64,000 bases of DNA from Comamonadaceae bacterium (GTDB lineage Bacteria; Pseudomonadota; Gammaproteobacteria; Burkholderiales; Burkholderiaceae_C), in assembly GCA_027485235.1 (NCBI GenBank), contig JAIXRJ010000037.1, forward strand, positions 1 to 64,000, in the 5' to 3' direction. A model generated the notes under the pieces. The model ran no database searches and had not been told where the DNA came from. It was given only the letters and a program-made list of their open reading frames with translations. A program made the translations under genes and the position numbers. The first letter of the stretch is position 1; the number at the start of each line of letters is the position of its first letter. This document shows, in pieces, positions 46,754 through 51,927 of this stretch.

Positions 46754-47773
46754 TTAAGGCTTGGCCAAAACTTGGAGCTCAGGATAGTCTTTGGCCATCT
46801 GCGCGCCATAAAGTGGCTTGAAGGCACCTTGGTGGCAAGTGGTGCAGTTGACTTTGGCCACATCGCCTTTGGGACCCAAGCGATGCGCAGGGAAGGTATC
46901 GGTTAAGGGTGTCAAGTACTCGTTGTTCAACTCGCGTGCCATCCGAATACCGTACCAAGAAGTCACGCGTTGGGGCCTGGATTCCTCCCAAGATTGGAAG
47001 TTGCGTGTGTTGTGGCAATAAGTACAGTTCACACCCAAGGACTCAGACATGTGCAGCATCAAGGAGTAGGTGTACTCCGTTTGCTTGGTCGACGAACGGT
47101 TGGCATTCGACCCCACACCTGCCATGGCTTCATTGCCATTGACTCGAATAGGTGCAGCATCCTTCAGATAAGGTGTGAAAGGATCAAACGGAAGTGACGA
47201 CAATCCAGCCGCTTTGGTCGCGATGTTTTGGCCTGCCAAATCGCCCAACAAACTGTTCGCATACTTGCGGTCCTTTGGCTCCGTCCAAACTTGGGTGGGG
47301 ACGTTGTTGCCGCGGTGACAGGTGTAACAAGTCACACCCGTCTCGGCCACGTGGGCCTTCCAGTCCTGATTGACTTTTTGGGTCATTTCAATCATGCGTC
47401 TGGCCACCACCTTGGTGTACAGGCTGTCATCGGCAAAGTTTTGCACGTTGTGGCAGTAAGCGCAGCCCTGATCGGGAGCGACCCACTGCGTGATGGCCGC
47501 CATTTGGCGGTTGAATTGCGCCACACTCAAATCTCCCAGAACCTTGACGTTCTGATAAACCTGACTGGCTTTTGGACCATCCGCCGACGCAGCTTCTGCC
47601 GCGACGGGCGCTTGGTTCAAAGCGGCTTCCTTGGCCAGAATTCTGGGATTGTAGATTTGCTCCATGCCGGTGCCACGGAAGCCCGTTTGGACCGTTTCAA
47701 TCGGGGGCCGTTCACAGCCCGACAGCAGCACGGCTGCACCCAGGCAAATCGCTAATTTAGACAAAAAATTCAT
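46754..47773 (-). CDS. pufC: Reaction centre tetraheme cytochrome c subunit PufC
   Basis: A 339-residue periplasmic lipoprotein. The lipobox LLSGC ends at C20. Four heme sites are visible: CAYCH, CYTCH, CTYCH and CTTCH, with upstream axial Met regions. It re-reduces the special pair and accepts electrons from HiPIP or soluble cytochromes. The ATG at 47773 overlaps the pufM stop in ATGA; the longer open frame is a shadow of pufM. Confidence 0.97.
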
Positions 47774-48744
47774 GGCTTGACTCCCATCAATGCAGGATCG
47801 AGGACGGCTGGGCTGACCAAGGGATACGCGGGAACCACATGGTGCTTGACCGACCACAGGTACCAGTTGTCCACCACAGGGCCGGTCAACAAGATACCCA
47901 CGCCGCCGACCAAAGGACAGAGCACGGCAAACCACCAAGCCCAACGGTGGATGGACTCCATCGTGGCATTGAAACCCATGGTCCAGCGCCAGAACAAGCC
48001 AGCACGTTCAGAAGCGGTTCCGCGGTCCACGATTTGCTCGATCTCGCGCTCCCCGCCATACCGAGTCACCGCCAAAATGGTGGCGCCGTGCATGGCAAAC
48101 AGCAAAACTGAGCCATACAAGAAGACGATCGACAGAGCGTGGAATGGGTTGTAAAACAAATTGCCGTGACGCAGGGACAAGGCAGATGTCCAATCCAAGT
48201 GAGGGAATATGCCAAAGGGTACCGACTCGGACCAACTGCCCATCATGATCGGGCGAAAGAAACCACACACCAGAAACAACCAAATGGCTGCCGCATAAGC
48301 CCAAGCCACATGCGTTCCCAGGCCCAATTGACGAGCGCGCCGATAAGTTCGAGCCCACCACAGCAACATAGAAACGGTGAGCATAAAGCCCGTAATGAGC
48401 CACCAACCACCTTGTTGCAACGGAGGAATACTCAAACCGTAAGCAGGTGCAGGTGGTTCCAGTGCCAGCCAAAACAACTGACGGATAAACTGGACAGGGT
48501 TCCAGTCCACAGAGGCCAACATGTTGAAACCAATGATGTTGAAAGCCGCCATGCCGAAAATCAAGGACGCCACACCCAAGACACCCAAATAAACAGGGCC
48601 AATTTGAGCATTACCAAGTCGCCCAAACAAGTGAACCAAAAAGGGTTTACCGATTCGCTTGAAGTCTCCGCGTGGTAATTCAACGCCGTCGTGCAAAGGC
48701 CCTACAGGCTGCACGGATGTGAAAAGATTTTGATACTGAGCCAT
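47770..48744 (-). CDS. pufM: Photosynthetic reaction centre M subunit
   Basis: A 324-residue five-helix membrane protein that binds bacteriochlorophylls, quinone QA and iron with PufL. The N-terminus [13 protein letters not shown] and the block [21 protein letters not shown] are typical. A good AGAGGAAT ribosome site precedes it. It is coupled to pufC by a four-base overlap. Confidence 0.97.
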
Positions 48745-48763: not shown

Positions 48764-49591
48764 TCAAGTGCGCCAGATGGGCATGTTCAGCCACCAGCTC
48801 CACCATTCAGGCCAAGCGCCTGTCCAAAAGGGTCCGCTGACCACAATACAGACGATGCCAAACCAAACACCCGCAAGTGCCAAGAACAAACCCAACCGGT
48901 GAATGCCCAAGGTGCCCACCGAGTAACCAATCAGGTCTCTGAAAAACGTGTCTTCATGTTCTGGCGACTTGACAGCCTGGCCTCTTCCAGGGTTGGTGGC
49001 TGAGAGGACCAAGCCACCGTGCATGGACAGCGCGAGCACGGTTGTAAAGAAAAAAGTGACGGCAATCATGTGCCATGGGTTGTAGTGAAAATGCAAGTAC
49101 TGGTAAGCGGTGTTGCTCACCCAGTCCAAGTGGCTGTAAATGCCATAAGGGAAGGCATGCCCCCAAGCCCCCATGAGCACAGGACGCACCACTTGCAAAC
49201 TGAAATACGCCAAGATGGCCATGCTGAAGGCGACAGGCACATGCAGGCCCATGCCCAATTTGCGGCAAATCTCAACTTCGCGCAGGGCCCAAGAGACAAA
49301 TGAGCCCAAGGCACACACCGTGATGAGTTGCCACAAGCCACCTTCCATCATGGGCGCGAAACGCAAACCATAGGAGAGGTCTGGTGGGGCAATGTTGATT
49401 TGCCAAACGTTCCAAGTGGGCCCCATGGCTGCGCCCCACAAAATCAACAGGGTGCCGGAAAGCACAAAAAACAGGGTTGTGATTCCAAAGAATCCAACGT
49501 AAAAAGGACCGACCCAAAAATCAAACAGGTCGCCCCCAAAAAGGGTACCGCCGCGCACACGGTATTTGCGTTCAAAACTTAACATGGACAT
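48764..49591 (-). CDS. pufL: Photosynthetic reaction centre L subunit
   Basis: A 275-residue five-helix protein with the classic N-terminus [33 protein letters not shown]. It binds the special pair, QB and iron with PufM. The ATG at 49591 has a GGAGG ribosome site; another ATG two codons later is possible. It lies downstream of a strong intercistronic hairpin after pufA. Confidence 0.97.
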
Positions 49592-49653
49592 GGTTGCATC
49601 CTCCGACCGAGTGACTGTTTGTGAGGTCTGGGCTTCAAGTTAACAAATCAAAT

Positions 49654-49691
49654 AACAGACGTACGGTTCAAATGAGCCAAGTACGTCTGTT
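49654..49691 (-). other. Intercistronic hairpin between pufA and pufL
   Basis: An 11-base perfect inverted repeat, AACAGACGTAC (49654-49664) and GTACGTCTGTT (49681-49691), with an inner partial stem. It sits in the 120-base pufA-pufL gap. In Rhodobacter capsulatus, hairpins at this place protect pufBA mRNA from decay and raise LH1 over reaction centre; the same role is inferred here. Confidence 0.8.
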
Positions 49692-49711
49692 TGAATAAAG
49701 ACCAAGGGTCC

Positions 49712-49906
49712 TTACTTTTGCGGCAAAGCCGCGTTCTGAGGCTGAACTTTCGCCGCCATCTTGACGGTATCGGGATGCCAGTTGTTGATGCTGTAACGAT
49801 CGCCACTGATTTGAATCAGGTGAATCGTTGTGGAGACAAAAGCGATCAGCAGGCCTACACCTGCAACCGCCAGTCGGGGATCTATCAAACGCCAAATGCG
49901 CCACAT
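49712..49906 (-). CDS. pufA: Light-harvesting 1 alpha polypeptide
   Basis: A 64-residue single-helix antenna protein. The start MWRIWRLIDPRL is diagnostic, and H29 in TTIHL is the bacteriochlorophyll ligand. The ATG at 49906 has an AAGGA ribosome site. The C-terminal extension after the helix is Asn-, Gln- and Ala-rich and about 25 residues long. It follows an extra small membrane protein gene by 14 bases. Confidence 0.95.
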   Translation of the reverse strand: MWRIWRLIDPRLAVAGVGLLIAFVSTTIHLIQISGDRYSINNWHPDTVKMAAKVQPQNAALPQK

Positions 49907-49920
49907 AGTAATTTCCTTTA

Positions 49921-50145
49921 TCAAATAACTTGAGAAATAACGGTATGCACAGAAGCACTCACACCTTCATACATGGTCATGGATTTTTCCGCTCCAGGAA
50001 GCCAAATGCGCCAATCAATAAAGAACATTTGACCAATCAAAGCGATCACAATGAACAGCGTGAAGAGCAAAACAAAAATCATCCAATAACCTTTGTAATG
50101 GTCAATCGGATCATTGCTTGTTTTGACATTGTTAGGGTTCGTCAT
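49921..50145 (-). CDS. Unrecognised single-helix protein between pufB and pufA (orf74)
   Basis: A 74-residue protein with a polar N-terminus (residues 1-20, H16), one membrane helix (about residues 21-43) and a C-terminal tail that begins DWRIWLPGAEKS and looks amphipathic. It has a very strong AAGGAGG ribosome site five bases before the ATG and lies in the middle of the puf transcript. It lacks the alpha or beta LH1 hallmarks: no DPR start, no ligand His inside the helix and no WRPW end. The layout recalls PufX (one helix, LP just after it, helical tail), but that gene lies elsewhere in Rhodobacter and I see no clear homology. It could be an RC-LH1 accessory subunit or a diverged antenna polypeptide. 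Confidence 0.85.
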   Translation of the reverse strand: MTNPNNVKTSNDPIDHYKGYWMIFVLLFTLFIVIALIGQMFFIDWRIWLPGAEKSMTMYEGVSASVHTVISQVI

Positions 50146-50169
50146 ACATACCTCCTTGATTTGGTTCTC

Positions 50170-50313
50170 TTAGAACCAGGGACGCCAGATCCACACCAAG
50201 CTGTGGGCGAAGAAAGCTCCTGCGGCCCACAACAGGTAACCCTGTATGAAGTACGTATGGAACTCTTGGGCTTCTTCGTCTGTCAGCCCTGAAGGGTTAG
50301 CTGCATCAGTCAT
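50170..50313 (-). CDS. pufB: Light-harvesting 1 beta polypeptide
   Basis: A 47-residue antenna protein. The motif [12 protein letters not shown] (H19), the helix with ligand H37 in FFAHSLVW, and the end WRPWF are all typical of LH1 beta. It is the first puf gene after bchZ and is followed by the extra orf74 and then pufA. Confidence 0.95.
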
Positions 50314-50349
50314 AGTTCATGCCTCTTTCTAAATGCCTTTCGGCAACTC

Positions 50350-50423
50350 CCTGAACCCTTGCGGATTCAGGACGGACTGTTGTGGCTTTGACACCGCAAC
50401 AGGTGGACCCTCGGCCAGGCCGA
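50350..50423 (-). other. Structured pufB leader with two hairpins
   Basis: In the 147-base gap between bchZ and pufB the minus-strand RNA can form CCTGAATCC-GCAA-GGGTTCAGG (50371-50350), a stem with a GNRA tetraloop and one G-U pair. It can also form a short TCGGCC-T-GGCCGA hairpin (50423-50411). No T-run follows either. They may stabilise processed pufBA messages, or separate bchXYZ from puf expression. Confidence 0.5.
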
Positions 50424-50460
50424 AGGATTGAACGGATCGGCGAATTCAAGTTCACATCTT

Positions 50461-51927
50461 TCATGCATGTGCTCCTTCATTCGCTTTTCCGAACAATTCT
50501 GTGAATCTCTTTGCTTCGACATGAGAGCGGCCGGTTTCCCGTGCATCTCGCTCTGCTTGATCTCGCATTCGCTTCGCTGCTGAAATTCGAACCAATACAG
50601 GTTGCTGCTCCAGCAAAGCGTCCAGTCTGTCTTGCGCCTCGGGCTCCCAAGGCACGGTGGTGTTGGGCGCGGAGCGACCTAAGGTGCCCTCGATCTTGTC
50701 CATCTCTGTGCCCAAAGGCAGGATGTGGAAAAGCGCATCGAACAGGCCATTGCAAAACTCTTGAATGATGTAGGTGGCACCGGCATAGCCCATGAACGGC
50801 GTACCGGTGTGACGGCGAATGATGGGCAAGGGAAAACTGGCCGGTATGAAACTGGTTTTCATCATGCCGCCGCCACCGCACTCGGCCAAATAAATGCGCT
50901 CGTTGTAGCTGCCGTACAAAATGAGCGGTGTTTTTTCAGTGACCAGTTTCCGTACCTCGGCGTTGTCTGTTTTGGCCCCGGCAATGCGCGAGATGGCAAA
51001 GTTGCAAGGCAGACCCATTTCGTCTTCCAAGAAATGGCGAATGCCGCGCGTGTAGGTTTCGTTGGCCACCACGCCAAAGTTGGCCGTGCCAAAAAAGTCT
51101 TGTGTCACAGACCGCCACAAATCCCAGATGGGTTTGATGGTGCTGTGCTTTTCTCTTTCGATGAAAGGCTCTGGATCCAAACCAAGCAATTCACCCAGAG
51201 TGCGCAGGAATTTGGTGGTGCTGTGCAAGCCAATGGGCGCTTGCAAATAAGGACGCTCCAAGGCCTCACACAACATGCGGCCGAATTCGCGGTACATGCA
51301 TATGTTCACATCGGCTTCCACCAAGCGCGAGACATCGGCCAAGTGTGAGCCCAATGGGAAAACCATGTTGACGTCGGCGCCAATGCCTTGCACCAAACGG
51401 CGAATTTCAGCCAAATCGCTGGGACAGTTGAAGGTGCCGTAGCTGGGCCCAATGATGTTCACGCGAGGACGCTCACCCTCCTTGCGCTCGCGTTTGGGGA
51501 CATGCTTGATGCCGTACTGTTGCCACAGCCAGTACATGGCGCGGTTCGCGCACTGCCATTGGTCTTCGTCGATGGTGCGCGGCAAGAAGCGTTGCAGATT
51601 GGTGCCCTCGGGTGTGACGCCACCGCCAATCATTTCTGCAATCGAACCCGTCACCACCACAGAGGGCAGATCGGGGTTGAGTGTGGCGTGCGCACGGCGC
51701 ATGGCACCTTCGGTGCCCTCGCGGCCCAATTGTTCTTCGGCCAATCCCGTCACCACAATCGGCAGTTCATGGGGCGGCAGTGCATCGGTGTAATGCAGCA
51801 CCGACGTGACGGGCAGATTCTCGCAGCCCACGGGGCCGTCAATGACAACTTGCAAGCCTTTGATGGCGGTGAAGACATACACCGCTCCCCAATAGCCCCC
51901 TGCGCGATCGTGGTCAAGAACCAGCAT
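50461..51927 (-). CDS. bchZ: Chlorophyllide a reductase subunit BchZ
   Basis: A 488-residue nitrogenase-like subunit of chlorophyllide a reductase (COR). The start [16 protein letters not shown], the stretch [22 protein letters not shown] and the C-terminal [20 protein letters not shown] are family features. Its start overlaps the bchY stop (TGATG). Confidence 0.96.

Follow-up and report, generated by a model that had tools for sequence, protein, structure and literature searches.

The puf operon of the Comamonadaceae bacterium studied here, a freshwater phototroph, contains, between pufB and pufA, a gene for a 74-residue protein which, as judged from its sequence, shares descent with LH1 beta and is a co-linear, ungapped relative of the long-tailed LH1 beta polypeptides. 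The protein has lost the histidine that ligates bacteriochlorophyll (BChl), and in the genomes of the order it goes together with a pufB product that lacks the tail. LH1 beta thus seems to have been divided between two proteins, a tailless beta that binds pigment and a tail-bearing partner without pigment, here called beta-prime. Coordinates below refer to the window, i.e. the whole stretch of 64,000 nucleotides of contig JAIXRJ010000037.1 that was analysed.

A selected gene inside the puf operon

The puf operon of the window runs on the minus strand in the order pufB (50170..50313), candidate (49921..50145), pufA (49712..49906), pufL (48764..49591; PF00124, E 8.4e-96) and pufM (47770..48744; an ORF with a PF00124 match in the genome search). 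The candidate gene, which encodes beta-prime of the ORF2/ORF74 family, is an ATG-initiated ORF of 74 codons separated from pufB by 24 bp and from pufA by 14 bp, with homologues in the same slot elsewhere; in 97 operons chosen for the order pufB-candidate-pufA-pufL the flanking gaps measure 17-45 nt on the pufB side and 10-22 nt on the pufA side. The initial annotation, made from the DNA letters of the window, had described a 74-codon gene in this place with a near-perfect ribosome site, and on both counts it was right: the sequence AAGGAGG (50151..50157, minus strand), 5 nt 5' of the candidate ATG, has a duplex energy of -12.7 kcal/mol, the strongest of the three antenna genes (pufB -5.8, pufA -5.6 kcal/mol). 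Its placing of the gene in the pufB-pufA part of the puf transcript also holds, a conserved and selected single-helix gene being found there. On the 3' side of pufA, a stem-loop (49648..49694, minus strand) forms in the pufA-pufL spacer, whose fold as a whole amounts to -29.8 kcal/mol, and may stabilise the pufB-candidate-pufA mRNA; with such a strong structure at this site, the beta-prime mRNA should match those of alpha and beta in abundance. In Roseateles, PMC10037100 describes pufA, pufB and ORF74 as co-transcribed in the major 1-kb puf transcript, and reports that in a sigma-factor mutant the TPM remaining were 0.71% for pufA, 1.09% for pufB and 2.34% for ORF74.

The window pufB encodes a tailless LH1 beta with its His present (NF040862 70.3 bits, cut-off 61; PF00556 39.8 bits, cut-off 23), and pufA an LH1 alpha that stays below both thresholds (NF040861 27 bits, cut-off 35; PF00556 19.9 bits, cut-off 23). 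These two are the only PF00556 matches in the window's genome, pufA being below cut-off, so that no LH2 was detected in this assembly of 95.85% completeness. The window pufA is of an unusual type, HLIQISGDRYSINNWHPDT as compared with HLILLSTNKFNWLDG in many other loci, which falls below the NCBIfam cut-off and, among the loci listed, accompanies its own kind of pufB and a separate candidate subtype (VISQ/VISH, not FMSH). The gap between bchZ and pufB is taken up by a 52-codon ORF (50306-50464, minus strand) that runs into the end of bchZ on one side and into the start of pufB on the other, and ORFs resembling it were seen in 12 of the 37 sequences scanned, the window included. Its position is that of pufQ in Rhodobacter, and PMC12817894 possibly refers to this gene with its 'ORF1' in Rubrivivax.

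The candidate gene is real and under purifying selection. Among 1087 non-independent pairs, limited to dS 0.15-1.2, the median dN/dS was 0.27 and every pair kept stayed below 1 (range 0.01-0.83). Constraint is strongest over residues 45-74 (0.145), followed by residues 16-44 (0.216) and the N-terminus (0.585). For the window candidate itself, dN/dS was 0.13 and 0.31 against its close relatives L002 and L028 (the latter pair with 14 changes) and up to 0.78 in distant pairs. Besides this selection, 119 distinct homologous sequences speak against a chance ORF. They were collected by a fixed pattern, with at least 70 aa and no EAxEFH motif; this pattern demands W45, P50 and E53 and limits the choice at positions 46, 48, 49, 51 and 52, so that conservation at these positions exists by construction, and the finding that 106 of the 119 are 74 aa long is biased towards 74 because start codons were picked to lie about 44 residues ahead of the Trp. 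Candidates outside the pattern do occur, with W45 replaced by Leu in genome G357 (L215), R46 by Gln in G084 (L168) and E53 by Ala in three genomes of genus g38 (L133, L135, L136).

Kinship with the LH1 beta polypeptide

Taken as a single sequence, the window protein matched no Pfam or NCBIfam family and did not reach the cut-off of PF00556 for LH1 beta, which explains the impression of the initial annotation that LH1 alpha and beta hallmarks were missing; among 13 relatives PF00556 was matched in three, with a best E of merely 0.32. The PDB sequence search with the candidate alone nevertheless retrieved LH1 beta chains with a long C-terminus (8z81_B, E 6.5e-6), and the family profile matched the LH1 beta chains 8z81_B and 7xxf_B with E 3.2e-14 and 2.8e-12, respectively. 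The PDB matches listed are antenna chains named beta or alpha/beta, the sole exception being a xylanase at E 0.57; no close PDB chain was found for the candidate, its best match being a distant beta. The match at E 3.2e-14 contradicts the earlier view of a protein unrelated to the LH families and is the kind of profile match that the initial annotation itself had named as refuting its proposal, though the protein does not fit the definition of a beta by pigment binding. As for the other small subunits with which a comparison had been proposed, the PufX profile (PF11511) gave no match for the candidate and none over cut-off in the window's genome, and chains named gamma, U or W are absent from the PDB matches listed, both for the single sequence and for the family profile.

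Alignment of profiles with hhalign led to the same relationship. Against 17 long LH1 betas the candidate family reached 99.4% with a score of 105 over 66 ungapped columns (maximum of 60 block-permuted nulls 25; reversed 12), a value inflated because the long-beta set came from candidate-profile matches. The PDB search and the comparison with the neighbouring short betas (95%, score 39; null maximum 22) are free of this selection bias. The C-terminal tail, residues 54-74 (49924..49986, minus strand), is by this measure homologous to the long LH1 beta tail: a tail-only profile scored 50 against the tails of five Burkholderiales long betas (maximum of 100 nulls 13.5) and, more weakly, 29 against long-beta tails outside the order (null maximum 11.7). 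Relative to the Trp, the helix face prevailing in the candidates consists of Phe at -21 (82%), -17 (97%) and -14 (74%) and Ala at -10 (86%). The claim that beta hallmarks are lacking is therefore not confirmed: EAxEFH and both His are indeed missing, but the Phe/Ala helix face, the W-R-x-W and the LPG tail of long betas are present and were found by profile searches.

In a tree of 67 rows the 26 candidates formed one clade (92/37) adjoining the Burkholderiales long betas, the two together being supported at 90/91; a grouping of the candidates with short beta was not rejected (p-AU 0.21), and the placement is unsettled since it draws on 64 columns only, with modest support. The simplest account would be the duplication of a long beta followed by a division of labour between the copies.

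The AF2 model of the candidate has helices at residues 13-48 and 58-73 but is weak (pLDDT 66, pTM 0.35), and a Foldseek search with it against the PDB gave no match; the single membrane helix and helical C-terminal tail of the initial annotation are thus both predicted, with modest confidence. The tail is moderately amphipathic (moment 0.30 against 0.17 +/- 0.09 for shuffled sequences), and the net charges resemble those of a long beta, which fits, if weakly, a beta-like orientation in the membrane.

Loss of the pigment ligand

Both His of LH1 beta are gone from the window candidate, where Gln39 (codon 50029..50031, minus strand), located by ungapped alignment with pufB, stands at the place of the BChl-ligating His. 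Within 122 distinct tailed proteins this place is held by Q in 88, K in 13, S in 9, T in 5, N in 3, H in 2, and L and G in one each; the BChl His is accordingly absent in 120 of the 122 (117 of 119 in an earlier pattern-based count), and the genes just upstream carry it in 80 of 80 distinct sequences. These figures come from a recheck in which pufB was recognised with no requirement for His and with at most 4 residues after WRPW; of 148 sources, 146 showed the pair with the upstream gene, the exceptions being L035 and L106. At L106, which comes from a Pseudomonadota MAG, the candidate precedes pufA, and the pufB patterns matched nothing just upstream of it. Two Curvibacter MAG candidates (L047, L048) have His at the ligand place, either retained or regained.

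Neither the window protein nor any of the 27 homologues from the first search has the EAxEFH motif; the pattern-collected sets excluded EAxEFH proteins, and their counts are no test of its loss. The joint loss of EAxEFH and His argues against the candidate simply filling a beta place.

Distribution and the reciprocal tail pattern

A homologue of the candidate was present in 27 of the 60 genomes of the first search, the window's own included. Relatives are encoded at 245 genome-contig places, and the best 80 of these belong, by their titles, to beta-proteobacterial or Burkholderiales taxa in all cases but L096 and L106; Rubrivivax gelatinosus and R. benzoatilyticus (loci L099, L100) are among these 80. 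The closest named relative is that of Limnohabitans sp. 15K (89% identical), which makes Limnohabitans the probable source of the window and Burkholderiales its order. A plasmid search gave one distant unannotated match only, on a Methylobacterium plasmid.

We further surveyed 399 genomes of the order, evenly drawn from a larger group, of which 48 have reaction-centre genes. The candidate was found in 38 of these 48 as against 1 of the 351 others, which bears out the expected conservation in related puf operons; in that one other genome, G309, it is present on a contig that ends before the reaction-centre genes. Being conserved, selected and tied to reaction-centre genes, the gene is likely to have an LH1-related role. 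To this extent the proposal of a candidate new RC-LH1 subunit is partly supported, but the ORF had been described before and does have kin among the antenna proteins.

The 38 genomes share one arrangement, a His-less gene beside a tailless pufB. Five others (G064, G201, G215, G288 and G318, from three families) have no candidate and a single pufB with both His and tail, three of genus g68 (G104, G224, G255) have a tailless pufB with neither candidate nor beta tail, and in the remaining two (G182, G335) the operon is cut by contig ends. A tail on pufB and the presence of the candidate are hence mutually exclusive (Fisher p 4e-5, 46 genomes, relatedness ignored). Genus g38 holds both states, and short pufB there resembles long pufB minus its tail. 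An initial equation of every strong profile match with the candidate proved wrong in 5 of 44 genomes, where the match is the sole pufB, with His and tail.

The three g68 genomes all have a different His-less gene upstream of pufB; for genus g68, single-helix genes in this position were noted at loci L204 (645-878), L205 and L227. Outside the order, 21 loci were scanned, 18 of them with pufB by pattern, and 11 of these 18 have a single-helix gene upstream of pufB (e.g. L203 1414-1701, L180, L196 1148-1375). The upstream genes are mostly His-less, and most end in a KAAA..PFAFM-like tail. Their profile (6 rows, one from g68) reached 94% against long LH1 beta, and their tail matches those of the Burkholderiales long betas; they are possibly a second, older pigment-free beta relative. 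In L179 (1456-1704; G457, same class) an 82-aa tailed protein is encoded upstream of a long pufB, with AH kept at the ligand place and EAxEFH absent.

Proposed role and alternative explanations

We regard it as reasonably probable that beta-prime is a duplicated LH1 beta devoid of its BChl ligand, which would pack on LH1, bring no pigment and contribute the tail in trans, its amounts probably being similar to those of alpha and beta. It would insert like beta, with its N-terminus in the cytoplasm and its tail in the periplasm, and its beta-like surface, free of pigment, would pack on LH1 alpha or on the outside of the ring; the amphipathic tail, which other species have within beta, would thereby be provided by a separate polypeptide. 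Amounts close to those of alpha and beta are expected because the gene lies inside the pufB-pufA mRNA segment and has a strong ribosome site, and from this mRNA position several copies would be predicted, unlike PufX with its one copy per reaction centre.

A wider generalisation is possible, if somewhat short of probable: in most phototrophs of the order, LH1 beta would be split into a pigment-binding beta and a pigment-free beta-prime, many copies of which would sit within the ring or around it, and the RC-LH1 complexes of these phototrophs, that of the old model Rubrivivax gelatinosus included, would contain a third antenna polypeptide that sets ring closure or the passage of quinones and that we found in none of the solved structures.

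The tail might act only before or during assembly, beta-prime binding alpha or nascent LH1 in biogenesis and being absent from the mature ring. PMC7806223 reports that in Rps. palustris the mature beta ends at Ala53, its last residues being cleaved off, so a beta tail could act mainly in assembly, and the loss of EAxEFH and of both His from the candidate points in the same direction. Nonetheless, the cleavage is documented in one species only, as far as PMC7806223 goes, and the tail, the most constrained part of the candidate, fits a lasting role equally well; we therefore consider a role confined to assembly unlikely, without being far-fetched. Beta-prime could instead take a beta place once per reaction centre and, lacking pigment, leave a gap for quinone exchange, as PufX and protein-W do by other means. 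A beta-like scaffold with no pigment ligand and a genome with no PufX above cut-off would suit such an interruption of the ring, which we nonetheless judge quite improbable, because gene position and ribosome site predict many copies rather than one, and because pufX, according to PMC9640540, lies after pufM.

A homologue of PufQ, steering porphyrin flux to bacteriochlorophyll, would likewise be a single-helix product of the puf operon. The hhalign comparison with 8 true PufQ (62%, score 26.6) just exceeds the null maximum of 21.8 from 40 permutations, the candidate shows kinship with the His-less gene that elsewhere lies in front of pufB (95.8%, 6 rows), and one member of these upstream genes matches PF05398 weakly, below cut-off (E 0.021). 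However, the candidate has no PF05398 match, nor does any protein of the window's genome exceed that cut-off, its slot differs, the ITPxIF end of PufQ is absent and its tail matches that of long beta and not that of the upstream genes, so that a PufQ function is very improbable. The related idea of a PufQ-type gene moved from upstream of pufB was dropped, the candidate tail scoring 10.9 against the upstream genes' tail, within the null, with true PufQ marginally similar. A new LH1 subunit unrelated to antenna proteins, as originally proposed, would suit a window protein with no Pfam or NCBIfam match but is hardly credible in view of the clear LH1 beta profile match. A non-functional leftover of pufB duplication, for which the faster evolution of the candidate relative to pufB and pufA could speak (0.27 against 0.11 for both), is virtually untenable given the open frame, the strong ribosome site, dN/dS below 1 in 1087 of 1087 pairs and the occurrence in many families.

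Comparison with known systems

The gene was not, as the initial annotation had it, unrecognised, since ORFs already in print correspond to it, namely ORF2 in Rubrivivax gelatinosus and ORF74 in Roseateles depolymerans. Although Rubrivivax gelatinosus had its puf operon sequenced as early as 1994 (Nagashima 1994, as cited in PMC12817894), the citing paper of 2025 still lists ORF2, an ORF under selection, with no known function. There ORF2 shares 10.1-14.5% identity with PufA2 (alpha), lacks the alpha His and is rejected as the source of the Gemmatimonas pufA2, which agrees with our assignment to beta. In the open-access literature, partly seen in excerpt, we found no report that links ORF2 or ORF74 to LH1 beta or gives them a function. 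What is new here, as far as we have seen, is the descent from beta, together with the lost pigment ligand, the reciprocal occurrence of the tail and the wide spread of the gene within the order. A beta relative that traded pigment binding for the tail would give a testable idea of the place of ORF2, and its beta identity can guide the inspection of betaproteobacterial RC-LH1 by cryo-EM and mass spectrometry. The split would also constitute a natural experiment on the purpose of the LH1 beta tail, which one-gene systems cannot separate from pigment binding.

Among known proteins, the long-tailed LH1 betas (8z81_B, 7xxf_B and the single pufB of the five genomes without candidate) resemble the candidate in their co-linear helix, W-R-x-W and LPG-type tail; the single pufB of those five genomes also stands directly before pufA, but keeps the EAxEFH motif and the BChl His that the candidate has lost. 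ORF2 occupies the same slot directly before pufA, and the Rubrivivax loci L099 and L100 encode clear homologues; in the parts of PMC12817894 at hand it is compared with alpha and not related to beta. ORF74 of Roseateles depolymerans (PMC10037100) was matched by name and place, not by sequence: the number in its name gives a length of 74, and its locus tag places it between pufB and pufA. The gamma-like polypeptide of Rhodopila globiformis is likewise an extra helix with no pigment ligand near beta and occurs in many copies, 11 per ring, but it has 22 residues, its gene is far from pufLMC (PMC9640540) and it shows no sequence match to the candidate. PufX, protein-W and protein-U are extra small RC-LH1 subunits, none of them among the PDB matches of the candidate; protein-W has three helices (PMC7806223), and the PufX gene follows pufM (PMC9640540) whereas the candidate sits between pufB and pufA. 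Finally, PufQ, as described in PMC5725709, is a small single-helix puf product whose gene lies upstream of pufB and whose C-terminus differs from that of the candidate.
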